Shown here: one piece after another, positions 17,520 through 25,634 of the stretch
Position numbering within the stretch: the stretch's first letter is position 1
How the letters are laid out: every line of letters starts with the position of its first letter
Position numbers and translations under genes: made by a program
Notes under the pieces: model-generated
Told to the model about the DNA's origin: nothing
Databases searched by the model: none
The model's input: the letters and a program-made list of their open reading frames with translations, nothing else
Assembly (NCBI GenBank): GCA_003562335.1
Contig: PWVE01000136.1
Span: forward strand, 1-33,853
Length of the DNA: 33,853 bases
Source: PVC group bacterium
GTDB lineage: Bacteria; Verrucomicrobiota; Kiritimatiellia; SLAD01
Reading direction: 5' to 3'

Positions 17520-18560
17520 ATGCAATTACTAGAAAAACTAAAGCACCTCGCGGAGCGGAAACCCACCGACGCCATTGCACTGGACTGTTCCACCGATGCG
17601 GTGCGAGCAGTTCGTCTGCGGCAGGCGCCGGGGGGCGTGACCCTGACGGCGGTGGACGAGTTACCGCCTGTTCCGCTGGATGCGGCGCGGTCTGCGCTGG
17701 GCGACGGGATTGAACTCAAGATTAAAGAGCTTGCCCTGCCGCCGCCGTTGCGCGCCCGCTATGCGGTGCTGCTGGCACCAGCGGGTTCGGCCGCGATCAA
17801 GTTGTTGCGGTTCCCGGAAGAGGTGGACTTGAACGACCCCCAAAAGGTGCGTGGGCGTATGGGCTTGGAAGAGGGGCGTTATCGTATCGGGACGCAAGTC
17901 ATCCAAACCAGCGGCACCAAACGGGAGGCCTTGGCCCTGGGCGTGGCCTTACCGGAGCCGTTGGCGCGCGCTTTACTGGAGCTGATGCCGAAATCGGGTC
18001 TGCCAGCACCCCATGCCCTGCAAGCTTCCGAATTGGCTGTGCTAAACGCTTTTGCGTCCGATCCCGCCTTCGCAAACGATCCGCCGCCCTGCGGCTTCAT
18101 CCACTTTGACCATGATTTTAGTATCGTGGCGCTCTTCAACGCGGGGCAGATATCGCAATTACGCACCTTCTCCTTTGGCTTGGCGGCGGTTATTCAGCGT
18201 ATTGTAAAGACATTGAATGTCGATCATGCCACGGCCAGCGGGGTGGTCAGCGACGGGGCTTTTGATATTTCGAGCCTGATCGAAACGGAAATTCGCGAAA
18301 TACGCGGTCAGTACGTGATCAGTCGCGACTTTATGGAGCGTAATGAGAATTGCCGTTTGCAACAGGTCTACCTTTCCGGACCACGACCGCTGACGGCACC
18401 GTTCGCAGGCGGGGAAAAAGCATCTGTTAAAGCTATCCACTGGAATGTACTGGACCTCTTCGACCAACGTATCGAGGGCGAGCTGCCCGATTCGTTGATC
18501 GATACCCCGTGGAAATTAACGGCAGCCATTGGGGCGGGGATGGGGGTTTTGTCCCCATGA
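17520..18560 (+). CDS. PilM-like (GspL-cytoplasmic-like) actin-fold protein
   Basis: Predicted cytoplasmic actin-like component of a type IV pilus or type II secretion alignment complex. It has 346 residues. The N-terminal pattern DAIALDCSTDAVRAVRL matches the phosphate-1 region of PilM/FtsA-type proteins, and FIHFDHDFSIVALFNAG resembles the second nucleotide-binding segment. IGAGMGVLSP closes the fold. The assignment rests on this pattern and on four downstream genes whose sizes and topologies match pilN, pilO, pilP and pilQ. The stop overlaps the next gene as ATGA. Sequence is diverged, so no symbol is given. Confidence 0.75.
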   Translation: MQLLEKLKHLAERKPTDAIALDCSTDAVRAVRLRQAPGGVTLTAVDELPPVPLDAARSALGDGIELKIKELALPPPLRARYAVLLAPAGSAAIKLLRFPEEVDLNDPQKVRGRMGLEEGRYRIGTQVIQTSGTKREALALGVALPEPLARALLELMPKSGLPAPHALQASELAVLNAFASDPAFANDPPPCGFIHFDHDFSIVALFNAGQISQLRTFSFGLAAVIQRIVKTLNVDHATASGVVSDGAFDISSLIETEIREIRGQYVISRDFMERNENCRLQQVYLSGPRPLTAPFAGGEKASVKAIHWNVLDLFDQRIEGELPDSLIDTPWKLTAAIGAGMGVLSP

Positions 18561-19192
18561 ATGCGATCTTCATCAATCTAATTCGCCCTGCCGAACAGCG
18601 GAGCGCCAGCCTTGTCAGCTTAAGGTCGATAGGCCTCATCGCCCTGATTATCGTGCCGCTGACGCTGCTGCTGATGCTGGGCTGGGCCTATATGCGTTAT
18701 GCCGAAGCGCAAAGTGCACTCCGCCTGGTCGAACAGGACTGGGCGCGTACCGAAGAACGCCAAGCCGAGGTAGTGGTGCTGCAACAGCAACTGACGACGG
18801 TACAGCGCTATGAAAATGATTTGATGGGCTGGGGAAGATCACGCCTGCCGTGGCACATAATTATGGGCGCTATGCAGGAGCATGTTCCAGAGACCTTGCA
18901 GTGGCGCTCATGGCAAATGCAAACCCGTTTCAACCGGGATTCCAATGAAGGCTTGCAACGCATTTACCGCGTCACCTTAAGCGGCCGCAGTTTGGGGCCG
19001 CAGGCGGAATCTCAAGTGGAAGTCATGCGCGCCGCCTGGGAAGCCCATTCCCCGCCTGCCAACTGCGTAGAGCAGGCAACCGTAACCGTTTTCGAGGACG
19101 ACCCCACGCCCGGGGCCGCCATCGAGGACCGGGTCTTTGAGATTGATGTGCGCTTTACCCCGAGGAATTTTCATGCCACTGCCGACCAATAA
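18557..19192 (+). CDS. PilN-like inner-membrane assembly protein
   Basis: It has 211 residues from the ATG at 18557, which overlaps the upstream stop as ATGA; the track start (18509) is too early. Topology is PilN-like: a short cytoplasmic tail MNAIFINLIRP, which fits the PilN interaction motif for PilM, one membrane helix (about 25-45), and a heptad-rich segment (about 48-90). A periplasmic ferredoxin-like domain follows, with strands such as YRVTLSGRSLG and DRVFEIDVRFTPR. The VTLSGRS strand is typical of this family. Name based on order and topology. Confidence 0.75.
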   Translation: MNAIFINLIRPAEQRSASLVSLRSIGLIALIIVPLTLLLMLGWAYMRYAEAQSALRLVEQDWARTEERQAEVVVLQQQLTTVQRYENDLMGWGRSRLPWHIIMGAMQEHVPETLQWRSWQMQTRFNRDSNEGLQRIYRVTLSGRSLGPQAESQVEVMRAAWEAHSPPANCVEQATVTVFEDDPTPGAAIEDRVFEIDVRFTPRNFHATADQ

Positions 19193-19826
19193 GACGGACC
19201 GGATTAAGGTTTATGCCCTGATCGCACTCGGTGTAGGCGGCGCGTTGTACGGCGTTTGGGCCTATGTGTACCAGCCACTGGCACAGCAACGGACCGCCAT
19301 GCAGGAACGGCAGGCAGAACTGATCCACAAAGTACAGGAAGCCCGGATTCAAATAAACCGCCGCGACGAAATTGAGCATACCCTCCATGAAGCGGCCCGC
19401 AATTTGCGCGCCCGGTCCGAGTACGACCTCATCCATCCACGACTCGGTAACTATCTCTTGCAAGCACGTGAAATTGTATTACAGCACGGACGCGCGCAGG
19501 GCATTACGAATATTCAAGTAACGGAACTGGATTTTGCCAACCCGCCACGGCGGCCGGACGACGCGCAACCACGCCAGACACGGGCCTATGTTGTCCGGGT
19601 CGCGGCCGTGTGCAGTTACGCCGATCTGACAGCCTGGCTGGCCGCACTTGAAACCGAAAACCCGCTGCTTGCCGTCAGCCAAATGATCATTACGGCCCAA
19701 GACGACAATCCCCTGCAACACCAAGTCCGCTTTGAGTTGCAGTGGCCGGTTTGGATCGATGTCGAAACCCGGTCGGTCGTGCGGGCATTGGTCGCAGACC
19801 TATTAGCTGCGGAGGAATCCCTATGA
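19173..19826 (+). CDS. PilO-like inner-membrane assembly protein
   Basis: It has 217 residues from the ATG at 19173, preceded by GAGGAA; the track start (19137) lies deeper in the upstream gene. A single membrane helix (about 13-33) is followed by a coiled coil (about 38-75) and a periplasmic domain with strands such as YVVRVAAVCSYADLTAWLAA. This is the usual PilO plan. It overlaps the PilN-like gene by 20 bases and the next gene by 4. Predicted partner of the PilN-like protein in the membrane alignment ring. Confidence 0.72.
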   Translation: MPLPTNKTDRIKVYALIALGVGGALYGVWAYVYQPLAQQRTAMQERQAELIHKVQEARIQINRRDEIEHTLHEAARNLRARSEYDLIHPRLGNYLLQAREIVLQHGRAQGITNIQVTELDFANPPRRPDDAQPRQTRAYVVRVAAVCSYADLTAWLAALETENPLLAVSQMIITAQDDNPLQHQVRFELQWPVWIDVETRSVVRALVADLLAAEESL

Positions 19827-20266
19827 GTCTGCGCGCCCCCCCCTTCAAGCACGCCGCCATCTGGATCCTTTGCGGGTGGATGGCTGTCGGCACAGTGATC
19901 TGGGCGGAAGACCTGGAGGCAGTTGTGCGCGATCCCTTCTGGCCAGTGGGGTATACCCCCCCCACTCCCGCTGAGGCCGCAGCCGCCACCGTGGACGTGC
20001 CGGAACTCGAGTGGCCGGACTTGCCGGTACGGGGGCGGTCCCGCGCGGTAGACGGCTCGTATCTGGCCTTGATTGAAGGCATTGGCATCGTCCGGGCGGG
20101 CCAGGTGGTGTCGGTTCCATCCCAAGGACATTGGTTTCATTGGCGCATTATACGTATTGACGCCGCACGCGTTCAGGTAGAAGAATTAGGCATTACGGCA
20201 GACCCGTCGCCGGCCCCCTTGCTGGCTGGCTCTACGGATAAAGACAAGGAGAAAACAGATGAATAA
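19823..20266 (+). CDS. PilP/GspC-like periplasmic protein
   Basis: It has 147 residues from the ATG at 19823, preceded by GGAGGAA and overlapping the upstream stop as ATGA. A signal segment (about 10-28, ending near VIWAED) leads to RDPFWPVGY, a motif like those at the mature start of pilus and secretion assembly proteins. No lipobox cysteine is seen at the expected site. The C-terminal half, around IEGIGIVRAGQVVSVPS, fits the small beta domain of PilP/GspC that contacts the secretin. It overlaps the secretin gene by 8 bases. Confidence 0.65.
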   Translation: MSLRAPPFKHAAIWILCGWMAVGTVIWAEDLEAVVRDPFWPVGYTPPTPAEAAAATVDVPELEWPDLPVRGRSRAVDGSYLALIEGIGIVRAGQVVSVPSQGHWFHWRIIRIDAARVQVEELGITADPSPAPLLAGSTDKDKEKTDE

Positions 20267-22265
20267 ACTTAAATCCCGGCTCGCGCCTGCTCACGGACAA
20301 CACCTCATGATGCACCAGGCGGCCGCATTCGTGCTGGCCGTCTTCTGGGCCGTCCAGGGCGGGATCGCCCCGGATGCACACAGTGAAGAACCGCTGCCCT
20401 TGGATATGGAAGACTTCACGCCATTACTAGAAGAGGATGAGCAGGAACCCGTACCGGCGGCCGCCGACGCTCCGGCCGGAACCGTAACCGACGTCATCGA
20501 CTTCTCGGAAGGGGACGTGGATCCGCGCGCCCAGATGGAAACCGAGGTCATCAACGGCACCGAACAGATCACCATTTCGCTGGACGATGTATCACTGGAA
20601 GATACCGTCCGCATGTTCGCACAGACCACGCAAGCCAACATCATTGCCTCCGGGGCGCTGCTGGAGGGTAAACGCGTGACCGTCAGCCTGCGCGACGTGC
20701 ATTGGCGACCGGCGTTGCGATCGATCCTGGACATTCACGATCTGACCCTGGCCGAGCGGACGCCCGGTTCCGGCATTTACAGCATTCAAGCCCGCCTGCC
20801 GGATGCCCCGGACCCCACCGAGGTCCGCACCTATTTCCTCAACTACACGACCGTCACCGAAGTAAAAGAAGCCATTAATTCCATGCTCAGTACCAACGCG
20901 GTCCTGACGCCGTTTGCGTCACGTAACGCGCTGGTAGTGCGCTCGAACGAAAGCAACCTCAGCGAGGTGGAAGCGTTACTGGCGGAACTGGACCGGCCGG
21001 GCCGACAGGTGCTCATCGAGGCGCGCATACTGGAATTGACGGATGATGCACGCCGGGCGGTCGGCATCGACTGGAGTGCGTTGGGGGCCTACGAAGTGGG
21101 TCTGACGGAAATGGAATGGTCATTTCGTGACCAGCGCACGCGGGACCGGCGGCAAGACGATCGTTTTGTTGAGTATGACCTGATGGGGACGCGCCGCGGA
21201 TCCTTGCTATTCGAAGACCCGGCCGGCAACGAATTGTCAGCCGATCCGTTCCAGAGCTGGATGGGCCAGCCCGACTTTGACGGAGTGTTCAGGGAAGCAG
21301 AATGGGAAGGCACCCCCCGTCGTTACCGGACAACGGAACAAGCCTTCGGCGCAGGCGCGGAAAGCCGCCGTAGCCGCGAGGCCCAACAACTCTATGAAGA
21401 CGTAAAATCGGCCATTCTTTCGCCGGCCGATTTCCGGTTGGTGCTGAGCGCCCTGCAAACGACCGATGGGGTCAGCATGGTTTCCAATCCCAAAATGATC
21501 GTTACCAGCGGCTCCACCAATGCCTTCTTCTCGGTCGGGGACCGGGAACCGATTATTGAAACGGAACGTGAACGGGCACGGATTGAGGGCCAGCCGGACT
21601 TGCTCACTTCCCGCCTAGCCACGGGCATTAACACGGAATTCATCACCGAAGGGTACCTTGAAACCGGCATTGACTTGCGGGTACTGGCCACCGTCAAGAC
21701 TGACGACTACATTGAAGCCGACATTCGACCTTCGCTGCGGCGGCTCATCGATTTCAAGCGCGTCGGTGATAACTCGTGGCCCATCATTTCCGTCAAGGAA
21801 ATCGGTACCAGCTTCACCTTGCGCAGCGGGCAAACCGTGGCCATCGGCGGCCTGACCGAGTCGCAAGATGCCAAGAAAACCTCGCGCGTACCTATTCTCG
21901 GCAATATCCCGCTACTGGGACGCCTGTTTCGCCACGAGCAAGATGTCACAGAACAAGTTGAGACCATTATTTTTGTAACCTTAACCATTGCCGATCCGGA
22001 CATACTGGAGCACGAGGCCGGCATACCGGTTGATTCACGCTTGGTTCATTCCCGGTTATTGCGCGAACGCGCCGCGCGACAAGAGTGGGAGCGGGACTTC
22101 AATGCGCAACGGGAAGCTTTTGAGGCCGGGCTGGACTTACAGGATACAGAAACGGAACCGGCCGCGGACACCCCGGCTTGGCTACCGGAAGAGGATGGCG
22201 TTCCCCGTGCCGCGCCCACGGAACCGCAGTCGCAACGCAATATGAACGACGTGTTACCGCGATGA
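20259..22265 (+). CDS. Secretin (PilQ/GspD family outer-membrane pore)
   Basis: Forms the gated outer-membrane ring of a type IV pilus or type II secretion-like system. It has 668 residues and AAGGAGA before the ATG. A signal segment (about 22-42) is followed by an acidic region (44-95), an STN/N0-like domain (about 100-170), one N1-like domain (about 185-250) and the secretin core. The core shows VSNPKMIVTSG and the hallmark VPILGNIPLLGRLF. About 100 charged residues are inserted in the core (roughly 275-385), which is unusual. It has a charged C-terminal tail after the core. Whether it serves pili or secretion cannot be told from this window. Confidence 0.92.
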   Translation: MNKLKSRLAPAHGQHLMMHQAAAFVLAVFWAVQGGIAPDAHSEEPLPLDMEDFTPLLEEDEQEPVPAAADAPAGTVTDVIDFSEGDVDPRAQMETEVINGTEQITISLDDVSLEDTVRMFAQTTQANIIASGALLEGKRVTVSLRDVHWRPALRSILDIHDLTLAERTPGSGIYSIQARLPDAPDPTEVRTYFLNYTTVTEVKEAINSMLSTNAVLTPFASRNALVVRSNESNLSEVEALLAELDRPGRQVLIEARILELTDDARRAVGIDWSALGAYEVGLTEMEWSFRDQRTRDRRQDDRFVEYDLMGTRRGSLLFEDPAGNELSADPFQSWMGQPDFDGVFREAEWEGTPRRYRTTEQAFGAGAESRRSREAQQLYEDVKSAILSPADFRLVLSALQTTDGVSMVSNPKMIVTSGSTNAFFSVGDREPIIETERERARIEGQPDLLTSRLATGINTEFITEGYLETGIDLRVLATVKTDDYIEADIRPSLRRLIDFKRVGDNSWPIISVKEIGTSFTLRSGQTVAIGGLTESQDAKKTSRVPILGNIPLLGRLFRHEQDVTEQVETIIFVTLTIADPDILEHEAGIPVDSRLVHSRLLRERAARQEWERDFNAQREAFEAGLDLQDTETEPAADTPAWLPEEDGVPRAAPTEPQSQRNMNDVLPR

Positions 22266-23380
22266 TGACCAAAAAAGAGATTGTAAGTGAGCTGGCAGAC
22301 CGGGCGGACCTGAGTCGGCGGGCGGCCGAAACGTGCCTGGACGCGTTAACCGAATTGGTCTATCGCGAGGCGGAAACCGGATTCACTCTGCCGGGGTTGT
22401 GTCGCTTTAAGGTGGCCCAGCGCAAGGAAACCCGCCGCTACAATGTTGTCACCGGCCAACATTATACCGTGGCCGCCCACAAGGTCTTAAAGGTCGTCCC
22501 ACTCAAAGTCGCGCGTAACGCGGTGGCACCGGTGCCGGACGACCTGTTGGTCACCGACACACCGGATATCGAAGCGGATGAGGTAGGCCTGGTTGAAGAA
22601 ATGGTCGACGGCAAGCCGGTACATGACCCCGACATGGAGTTGCCCCCCACCTACTTGCCGCACATTGCCGCCGTAGCGGCCACCACCGAACCCCCAGCAG
22701 CTCCCGTGAACGCCCCCCCTTCAACCACCACCGAATCGCATGACGACACAATGGACTCCGTCGCCGAACCGGAACCCTTCCAGGAGCCGACATCACCAAC
22801 GCCGACGTCCGCCGCAGTCGGCGACGCCCGCCCGGCAGCTCACGCTTCAGAACGTACGCCGGACCAGCCCCCACCCATCGACGAGACAGCGGCTGCGTCA
22901 CCACCACCACGCGTGGAAACACCGGGCGACACCGATACCGGATCCCCGGCCGAGGACGAGGAAACGTTCGACTTCCCCTGCCCGCATTGTGGAGAAACCA
23001 TTTCCGCACGCCCACAGGATGGTGGTGCAGAAGGCATCTGCCCCGAATGTCGCGGGGAATTTCGCATTCCGGATATTTCGCCCATCACCGAGGAAATCAA
23101 TATGAAAGATGACAACGCCCTACAAGCCCAACCCGATACCGACGAAGAAGCGTCCGGATTTGTGACCTTCTTCTGTAATGAATGCGGCCAGCAAATCGAA
23201 GCCCCTCACGAAATGGTGGGTTTACAAGCCGACTGTCCAGCGTGCGGTTCGCGCTTGCAAGTTCCGCAAAAAGGCTCCACCTTTGAGGAAAGCGGCTTGG
23301 AGGAAATCCAGTCGGACGATAAAAAACCAGACGATCCATCGATGACCGTTCGCATGGATCTATCCGATTTCCTGTCCTAG
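22262..23380 (+). CDS. HU/IHF-like domain fused to two zinc ribbons
   Basis: It has 372 residues from the ATG at 22262, overlapping the secretin stop as ATGA; an adjacent ATG at 22265 is an alternative. Residues 1-90 read as an HU/IHF DNA-binding domain: MTKKEIVSELADRADLS, FTLPGLCRFKVAQRKETR and the arm-like RRYNVVTGQ. A Pro/Thr/Ala-rich acidic linker (about 95-235) follows. Then come two CxxC...CxxC zinc ribbons, CPHC/CPEC (about 240-265) and CNEC/CPAC (about 305-335). I know no characterised protein with this architecture. Function is unknown; a nucleoid-associated or regulatory role is inference. The track start (22178) is too early. Confidence 0.8.
   Translation: MMTKKEIVSELADRADLSRRAAETCLDALTELVYREAETGFTLPGLCRFKVAQRKETRRYNVVTGQHYTVAAHKVLKVVPLKVARNAVAPVPDDLLVTDTPDIEADEVGLVEEMVDGKPVHDPDMELPPTYLPHIAAVAATTEPPAAPVNAPPSTTTESHDDTMDSVAEPEPFQEPTSPTPTSAAVGDARPAAHASERTPDQPPPIDETAAASPPPRVETPGDTDTGSPAEDEETFDFPCPHCGETISARPQDGGAEGICPECRGEFRIPDISPITEEINMKDDNALQAQPDTDEEASGFVTFFCNECGQQIEAPHEMVGLQADCPACGSRLQVPQKGSTFEESGLEEIQSDDKKPDDPSMTVRMDLSDFLS
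23090..23104 (+). promoter_or_regulatory. Internal ribosome binding site and in-frame ATG
   Basis: Inside the HU/zinc-ribbon gene, GAGGAA (23090-23095) lies six bases before an in-frame ATG at 23102. Initiation here would make a 92-residue protein carrying only the second zinc ribbon. This ribosome binding site is better than the one at the main start. It could mean internal initiation, or mark the junction of two genes that were once separate. Confidence 0.4.
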
Positions 23381-23395
23381 TACAGGCTCACAACC

Positions 23396-24292
23396 ATGAA
23401 ATGGGCTAATTTAAAAACAGCATTGCGCACGGCGACTGAAGAACCAGGCAAAACGAATGGCTTGGTCAAGGACGCGCCCGGTGCTGACGGAAAGCCTGAC
23501 ACGCTAAAGCCAGCGAGCACACCCGATATATCCGTGCGCAAGCACCCACCGCCCGGGGCGGCGGCGGCTACGCCACAGGACGAACGTAGTCGCGACCGCT
23601 CATTGTGTAAGGCGTTAATGGCCAGTATGTATGATGCGTTGTTGATTCTGGACGAAAAAGGAAACGTCATCGCCTCCAATCCCAGGGCTGAACTGTTTTT
23701 CGGCTACGACGAAGCCACGCTCTGGGGCATGTCCGCCTTCAAACTCATCGCCGGATTTAATCCGGTGATATTGAACAAAATACGAGCTTACGTGGCGGAT
23801 GACCGCTTTACCGTGTTAAACACCAAAGGCATGAAGCAAGACGGCGGCACCTTTGCGGCGGAAATAGCGTTCGGCTCCATTTTTTATCTGCACGAAGACG
23901 ATTTACTGCTGACTATTCGCAACGTGGACCGGCGGCAAAAAGCTGAACGCAAATTGGCTCTCGAGCGAGACACCGCTGCTTATAGCGCCATCCCACTGCT
24001 GCTCATCGATGAAGCATTCACCATCCAGTACGCGAACACCGCTGCGGCTGAAGATCTAACCGGCAACCCCGAAACCTCGCTAGTCGACCAGTCGCTAAGC
24101 ACGTTTGTCAAAGATACGCAGGCCCTGCAAAACGCTTGCACCAAGGCAGCCAACGCCGACACCGCACGCTGGGCAGGGCCATTGCCCCTCAAAGGTCCAC
24201 GCGGCAAGCCGCGCTCCGTGAACGCCACGCTGCGCCACCTGCCGCCGCAGCGCGGCGACCAAACCCTGTTTGTGCTGGCGTTTACCCCCTAA
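23396..24292 (+). CDS. PAS domain protein without an output domain
   Basis: It has 298 residues and starts 15 bases after the HU/zinc-ribbon gene. A low-complexity, proline-rich N-terminus (1-65) is followed by one clear PAS domain (about 75-185: LLILDEKGNVIASNPRAEL, then FFGYDEATLWGM). A second likely PAS follows (about 195-298: LLLIDEAFTIQYANTAAAE). No kinase, GGDEF, HTH or methyl-accepting output domain follows. It may sense a ligand or redox state and act by protein contact. Its neighbour is a flavoprotein reductase, which makes a redox cue plausible; that is inference. Confidence 0.8.
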   Translation: MKWANLKTALRTATEEPGKTNGLVKDAPGADGKPDTLKPASTPDISVRKHPPPGAAAATPQDERSRDRSLCKALMASMYDALLILDEKGNVIASNPRAELFFGYDEATLWGMSAFKLIAGFNPVILNKIRAYVADDRFTVLNTKGMKQDGGTFAAEIAFGSIFYLHEDDLLLTIRNVDRRQKAERKLALERDTAAYSAIPLLLIDEAFTIQYANTAAAEDLTGNPETSLVDQSLSTFVKDTQALQNACTKAANADTARWAGPLPLKGPRGKPRSVNATLRHLPPQRGDQTLFVLAFTP

Positions 24293-24310: not shown

Positions 24311-25171
24311 ATGAATAAACAATCGTCAACCGATGGGCCAATCTATACGGCCGAGGTCAAGGCCAACAAGAACCGCTTACAGGTAACGGATACCGACCGC
24401 GAAGTGCGTGAGCTTGTGCTGGAGATTGATGATCCGGGCTTTACGTGCGAGGCCGGTCAAAGTATTGGCGTCTACGCGCCCGAACCAGACAGTGGTCAGC
24501 CGGAACACCTGCGCTGGTACAGCATTGCCGATGCCCCCGCGCGCGACCACCATAAACGCTTGAACCTGACCATTTGCGTGCGGCGCATGGTCTGGCAGGA
24601 TTCCGACAGCGGCCAGACCAAGCGCGGCGTGGCCTCCAATTATCTCTGCGACCGGAGCCCCGGCGACACCGTGCGCCTAACCGGCCCGCGCGGAACTCCC
24701 TTCGTGATGCCGCCGACCAACGACGCCACCATCATTTGTATCGGGACCGGCACCGGTATTGCGCCCTTCCGCCATTTTATCAAGGCGCTGGCCCGTAAAT
24801 ATCCGGACTGGCAAGGCGTGCTGCGACTCTTCTATGGGGCCCAAAACGGTTTGGATGTTTTATACGCCAACGATCCCAACAGCGATTGGGAACAATATTT
24901 TGACCAGGAAACCTTTGCCCTGATCCAACGCATGAGTCCGCCCCCCAATTGGGCCGATCCGATTGGTTGGGACCTGGCCTTCTCAGAGCGCGGTGATGAG
25001 TTGATCCGACTGCTGGAACAGCCCAACACCTATGTGTATGTGGCCGGGTTAAAGGAAATTGGCAAACGACTGGACCAGCTATTTGCTAAACTGATGGGGT
25101 CACTCAACGCGTGGACCCTGCAGAAACAAGAACTCATGGCCGCCGGACGGTGGACGGAACTACTGTACTGA
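24311..25171 (+). CDS. Plant-type ferredoxin-NADP+ reductase-like flavoprotein
   Basis: Predicted FAD enzyme passing electrons between NADP(H) and a ferredoxin or flavodoxin. It has 286 residues. The FAD-binding domain has LRWYSIADAP and GVASNYLCDRSPGD, and the nucleotide domain has ICIGTGTGIAPFRHF. The protein ends in Tyr, as plant-type FNRs do, to stack on the flavin. The ATG is preceded by GGGAGAA. It lies between a PAS protein and an EIIA gene. No ferredoxin gene is close, so the partner is unknown. Other members of the FNR superfamily cannot be excluded. Confidence 0.88.
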   Translation: MNKQSSTDGPIYTAEVKANKNRLQVTDTDREVRELVLEIDDPGFTCEAGQSIGVYAPEPDSGQPEHLRWYSIADAPARDHHKRLNLTICVRRMVWQDSDSGQTKRGVASNYLCDRSPGDTVRLTGPRGTPFVMPPTNDATIICIGTGTGIAPFRHFIKALARKYPDWQGVLRLFYGAQNGLDVLYANDPNSDWEQYFDQETFALIQRMSPPPNWADPIGWDLAFSERGDELIRLLEQPNTYVYVAGLKEIGKRLDQLFAKLMGSLNAWTLQKQELMAAGRWTELLY

Positions 25172-25187
25172 CCTGGACGCGTTACCG

Positions 25188-25634
25188 ATGCTTAGCCGAA
25201 AGCAGCTTAAAAAAGATGCGGTCTGTCTTGACCTGCAGGCCACTGATAAAGCCGCCGTCATGGAGGAAATGCTCGACCTGCTGATGGCCACCGGCAAGGT
25301 GCCTGATCGCAAAGTCGCGCACAAGATGCTCTGGGCGCGCGAGGACCAGCAATCCACCGGACTACCGGGCGGTGTGGCCATCCCCCACGCCAAGTACGAT
25401 TCCGTGGATAGTCTGGCCGTGGCCATTGGTATTCACCGGGCCGGTGTCGATTTCGAGGCGATGGACGGTAAGCCAACCCACTTTATCATAATGTCGGTTT
25501 CGCCCGATAACCGCCATGGCCCGCATATCCAGTTCCTGGCTGATTTGAGCCGGAAACTATCCGACCCCGCTATCCGCCACCAGCTACTCGCCGCCAAGAC
25601 GGCCGAACAGGTTATCGATGCTTTGACGACATGA
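25188..25634 (+). CDS. PTS EIIA domain protein, PtsN/fructose type
   Basis: Single EIIA type-2 domain, 148 residues. The phosphorylatable histidine is in LPGGVAIPHAKYDSV (near residue 66), and IIMSVSPDNRHGPHIQFLADLSRKL is the standard C-terminal motif. No EIIB or EIIC domain is attached or nearby. This matches PtsN (EIIA-Ntr), a regulatory rather than transport protein, and would be the natural phosphate acceptor for the Enzyme I and HPr encoded at 9491-11586. The ribosome binding site is weak. A stand-alone fructose EIIA is the alternative. Confidence 0.9.
   Translation: MLSRKQLKKDAVCLDLQATDKAAVMEEMLDLLMATGKVPDRKVAHKMLWAREDQQSTGLPGGVAIPHAKYDSVDSLAVAIGIHRAGVDFEAMDGKPTHFIIMSVSPDNRHGPHIQFLADLSRKLSDPAIRHQLLAAKTAEQVIDALTT

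Follow-up and report, generated by a model that had tools for sequence, protein, structure and literature searches.

An HU–zinc-ribbon fusion protein of the class Kiritimatiellae is encoded in persistent pairing with a tandem-PAS gene

We found that, in members of the class Kiritimatiellae, an HU domain is fused to zinc ribbons and a conserved C-terminal peptide, and that the gene for this fusion is persistently paired with a gene encoding a tandem-PAS protein. In the window, that is, the whole 33,853-nt stretch of DNA analyzed here, the HU-ribbon gene (22262..23380, + strand) encodes a protein of 372 aa, ordered as HU domain, disordered linker, two CxxC..CxxC ribbons and conserved C-terminal peptide. 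The HU-ribbon/PAS combination is undescribed in the literature searched, and is built from HU, ribbon and PAS domains that are already known.

One frame joins an HU domain, two ribbons and a conserved tail

The initial annotation described an HU-like N-terminus, a long linker and two ribbons in one frame, overlapping the stop codon of an upstream secretin gene. Both descriptions are real. The ATG at 22262 overlaps the secretin stop TGA (22263-22265) as ATGA; a second ATG at 22265 may be the true start, since it is this one, and not the first, that aligns with HU position 1. Promoter and terminator scans gave signals no greater than in shuffled sequence. The domain composition was borne out by profile search, by structure prediction and by conserved relatives, and the retention of the same architecture in many genomes excludes a chance origin.

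Typical HU is a small single-domain protein of about 90 aa. The HU domain of the fusion (residues 2-88; 22265..22525, +) scored 51.5 bits against PF00216 (cut-off 22.4, E 1.2e-13), identifying the N-terminus as HU, and a single-sequence phmmer search of PDB sequences matched E. coli HU-beta (1.4e-05). AlphaFold2, supplied with an alignment of 12 natural sequences and run as a monomer, predicted an HU fold and two four-stranded ribbons, with pLDDT values of ~87-95 for HU residues 1-80, ~72 for residues 81-90 and >90 for the ribbon cores; the top PDB matches in Foldseek were HU/IHF (probability 1.00). The protein thus resembles HU/IHF (PF00216) in fold, domain length, arm architecture and a score over the cut-off, but differs in its length of 372 aa versus ~90, in its two ribbons, linker and conserved tail, in a family-specific cysteine and, for the window copy, in the lack of the arm proline and of one arm arginine. 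HU/IHF-superfamily domains fused to other domains were reportedly described by Burroughs and colleagues in 2017. The architecture is recurrent, but our search of a literature library returned nothing relevant on an HU-ribbon or HU-PAS fusion, and no characterization of it.

The Pro/Thr/Ala-rich linker (residues 89-235; 22526..22966, +) is modeled at low confidence and predicted to be disordered, and the tail is likewise disordered in the model. The two zinc-ribbon-like domains lie at 22967..23071 (+; C240xxC243...C260xxC263) and 23159..23266 (+; C305xxC308...C325xxC328), with a QEIEAP signature following the second ribbon cysteine. None of the eight ribbon cysteines varies among the aligned full relatives, and the ribbons would be expected to bind zinc. 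They match many ribbon families weakly and none decisively: TIGR02605, with a cut-off of 31.3, gave 33.4 bits for the C-terminal fragment and 29.5 for the whole protein. Each ribbon has two CxxC pairs, like the small FmdB-type/MJ0042-type zinc ribbons (TIGR02605, PF09723, TIGR02098); the QEIEAP signature and the fixed C-terminal peptide set the HU-ribbon family apart.

That peptide, PSMTVRMDLSDFLS (23336..23377, +; family pattern S[MR]TIRI[DE]L), had been missed by the initial annotation, as had the PAS neighbor described below. A T-x-R-[ILVM] motif follows the last ribbon in 46 of the 50 EA-type ribbon proteins collected, mostly within ~10 residues of the C-terminus, a frequency biased upwards because many of these proteins were collected with a tail-containing profile; this bias does not touch the conservation of the tail past linkers that cannot be aligned. 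More speculatively, FHA proteins might recognize the invariant threonine (T-x-R-[IM]) in phosphorylated form. We also weighed a sliding-clamp-binding motif in the tail and discarded it on visual inspection, an Asp occupying a position that must be hydrophobic. The window's family also encodes single-ribbon proteins of ~100 aa (L024-L030), most of which end in STVRIDVP...RIVKIKR, a related tail.

The HU-ribbon gene is paired with a tandem-PAS gene across the class

We rejected a fusion restricted to the window, the same architecture being present in relatives of the same class. Scanning genome contigs with the window protein as sole query returned no relative, and the same scan with an alignment as query returned 19 loci; a ribbon-only query also led to relatives in this class, whose open frames show the same architecture. 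About 20 HU-ribbon relatives were found within the Kiritimatiellae, on contigs labeled Kiritimatiellae, Lentisphaerae, PVC-group or Verrucomicrobia, or as MAGs, which make up most of the genomes compared. In a phylum-level sample of 388 genomes, no full-length match was found outside the class, matches there covering ribbon positions only. The relatives take four forms, HU-ribbon-ribbon-tail, HU-ribbon-tail, HU-ribbon-tail-ribbon-tail and ribbon-tail alone, the full form with HU, two ribbons and tail being found in several families. The window's genus is represented by two genomes, in the second of which a contig break falls inside the HU-ribbon gene.

Several features of individual loci were recorded. 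The HU-ribbon copy of genome G068 (L098:2574-3406, -) is frameshifted ahead of the tail, through either a genuine mutation or an assembly error. In f34 and f46 genomes, the HU-ribbon gene has mutL next to it or nearby (L181, L185, L191). An FHA-MoxR-type AAA gene lies upstream of a ribbon-tail-only gene (L120:8521-9909, L121, L122), and an FHA-sigma-54 activator gene lies close to an HU-ribbon gene (L115:7048-8418).

The partner gene of the window (23396..24292, +) begins 15 nt downstream of the HU-ribbon gene and encodes two PAS domains preceded by a disordered N-terminal stretch of ~59 aa; profile searches recognized nothing beyond the PAS domains, neither kinase nor output domain. All complete HU-ribbon-ribbon-tail loci of the initial comparison have the PAS gene at this position. 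Across 13 family-level groups, it adjoins the HU-ribbon gene in 23 of the 25 loci that could be assessed, in a tally based on stop-to-stop frames and profiles that leaves out two contig-end loci. Twelve of these loci are collinear (f1, f28, f25, f43, f40, f23, f20, f90) and 11 are head-to-head (f46, f47, f34, f14, f31), and the occurrence of both arrangements indicates that the link survived an inversion. The two exceptions are the distant G049 and G281, the latter with its PAS gene on a different contig, beside pilT. Taken together, these data show that the HU-ribbon gene and the PAS gene are persistently paired; physical contact between the two proteins is predicted.

In two f31 genomes, a gene for a ribbon-tail protein lacking HU is also arranged head-to-head with a PAS gene. 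Since the PAS gene adjoins these HU-less genes, the ribbon/tail would be the part that pairs with PAS, and the HU domain the DNA-targeting part. Foldseek matched the PAS protein to PpsR, the MmoS sensor and the NifL-NifA complex. The partner is, like the PAS regulators NifL, PpsR/AppA and MmoS, a tandem-PAS protein, but, unlike them, it lacks kinase, helix-turn-helix and GGDEF/EAL domains, and its proposed output partner is the HU-ribbon protein. Because the PAS protein has no kinase or output domain of its own, its partner must carry the output, if the two act together; the PAS protein could also act alone. A PAS protein of G015 (L197:6110-7273, -) starts with SSTMRIDLS, which is the tail motif of the HU-ribbon family. 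In the window, genes for a ferredoxin-NADP reductase-like protein and a PTS EIIA-type protein (24311-25171 and 25188-25634) follow closely 3' of the PAS gene and may share its transcript.

Pilus and secretion genes recur around the pair

With moderate confidence, we propose that the HU-ribbon protein is a PAS-controlled, cytosolic, HU-type DNA-binding adaptor, and probably a local regulator. The HU dimer would bind or bend DNA, while the long flexible linker would hold the two ribbons and the C-terminal peptide motif away from it. The PAS protein, sensing a signal that could be the redox state or a small ligand, would dock on the ribbon/tail part and thereby make DNA occupancy, or the recruitment of another protein, signal-dependent. 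The HU-ribbon protein would then most likely be a local transcriptional or architectural regulator, whose targets or clients may include, in several lineages, type IV pilus or type II secretion genes. Both the DNA binding and the regulatory output are predicted from domain content and gene context.

Pilus and secretion genes are recurrent neighbors of the pair. In f28, PilB, PilC and an NtrC-type sigma-54 response regulator are encoded around it, with a pilin further on; in three f34 genomes, a gene for a PilT-family ATPase follows the PAS gene after 3 nt, and in one f31 genome such a gene lies beside it. In a raw tally, these neighbors occur in four family groups (f1, f28, f34, f31), and none is near at most loci. 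Since pilB-pilC (f28) and pilT (f34, f31) flank the pair, a link to a pilus or secretion machine through the PAS pair is plausible. The PilT-family ATPases encoded 3 nt after PAS genes (L181:2405-3874 (-), L194, L199) are ~490 aa long, and their extra C-terminal stretch gives a weak match to TPR repeats.

This neighborhood also feeds the main rival to the adaptor reading, in which the pair regulates the pilus or secretion motor post-translationally or acts as its scaffold, the HU domain serves for nucleoid anchoring or dimerization, and the output is not transcription. The 3-nt spacing of PAS and PilT genes, the position of the pair beside PilB-PilC in f28 and that beside the secretin operon in the window all argue for such a role. 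The precedent is FimX, a PAS-containing protein that controls PilB and pilus-motor localization in Pseudomonas (PMC11656802). Like FimX, the partner is a PAS protein with a link to pilus motor genes, but FimX carries REC, GGDEF and EAL domains and the partner PAS domains only. The scarcity of pilus or secretion genes close to most pairs speaks against motor regulation, as does the HU arm, whose conservation in most copies suits DNA binding, and we consider this alternative fairly unlikely. The lack of such neighbors at most loci also counts against the adaptor reading, as do the separate contigs of the two G281 genes.

The HU domain has a single origin and probably still binds DNA in most copies

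In a tree of only 91 columns, with some long rows, the HU domains of the 20 fusions group in a single clade (support 100/97; 99% of bootstrap trees), beside a standalone PGLGK-type HU paralogue from the same family of genomes. The fusion HU domain therefore has a single origin, the window copy sitting on a long branch. The position after PG[IL], Cys47 in the window protein, is specific to the fusions, being Cys in 19/20 of their HU domains and Gly in all 45 of the other HU domains compared.

The proline at the RNP arm tip of HU is the intercalating residue. Among the fusion HU domains, 17/20 keep the arm Asn and 18/20 the arm Pro, and DNA binding is thus probably retained across the family; the f25 and f43 copies are examples with an intact RNP arm. 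In the window copy, the arm reads RYNVV versus RRNPxTG: RNP is absent from the tip of the beta-arm (YNV instead), the arm-tip Pro being replaced by Val62 and the Arg before it gone, and the net charge of the domain is +6, versus a family mean of +9.9. With the arm Pro and Arg lost and the charge lowered, the window copy may bind or bend DNA poorly, a further point against the adaptor reading.

These substitutions, the long branch of the window copy and the pairing of HU-less ribbon-tail proteins with PAS would fit an HU domain turned into a dimerization or protein-binding module, making the protein a zinc-ribbon adaptor with no action on DNA. The arm residues kept by most relatives and the strongly basic character of the fusion HU domains argue against this, and we regard it as improbable. 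A reading in which the protein is just a nucleoid-associated variant of ordinary HU, its C-terminus decorative and its neighborhood incidental, appears quite improbable: the window genome does carry two ordinary HU genes, one of them related to the fusion HU, but PAS adjacency in 13 family-level groups and two orientations, together with conservation of ribbon and tail, would be unexpected of an incidental neighbor.

The secretin operon is not the conserved partner

The gene immediately upstream encodes a PilQ/GspD-like secretin (20259..22265, +) and is preceded by four genes (17520..20266, +) in a pilMNOP/gspLM-like order. The secretin scored 4.6e-42 on PilQ and 7.8e-41 on GspD, both below the cut-off; the third of the four genes matched GspM (8e-09), and the other three gave no significant profile match. 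The initial annotation had called this operon pilMNOPQ; its secretin holds, but the label does not, since the secretin scores alike on PilQ and GspD and the third gene matches GspM, so that these profiles do not tell type IV pilus from type II secretion.

We rejected the secretin as a conserved partner, since it is a neighbor in the window's genus only. Sister genera, including g3, keep the secretin and lack the HU-ribbon gene, and no match to the PAS partner was found in sister genera of the window's family at E 1e-30; elsewhere, the HU-ribbon gene occurs with no secretin alongside. The expectation that the HU-ribbon gene would stay next to pilMNOPQ across genomes was thus contradicted, the constant neighbor being the PAS gene. 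Of the suggested tie to an envelope machine, the coupling to the secretin falls away, and what stands is the presence of pilus or secretion genes near the pair in three further family groups. The suggestion that the HU-ribbon gene is part of the secretin operon and encodes an assembly factor for the machine, prompted by the ATGA overlap, is already disfavored and very improbable, given the orthologous secretin of g3 without an HU gene and the HU genes elsewhere without an adjoining secretin.

Implications

The adaptor reading could be extended to a class-wide module, in which a PAS sensor would act on the HU protein through the ribbons and a C-terminal recognition peptide, coupling the state of the pilus or secretion machine to the chromosome; we consider this extension speculative and decidedly unlikely. 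HU proteins are usually seen as constitutive architectural factors without specificity. This conserved fusion and its dedicated PAS partner would, if true, be a case of a signal-controlled HU, and the pilus and secretion context makes the pair directly testable in a class with almost no experimental genetics.
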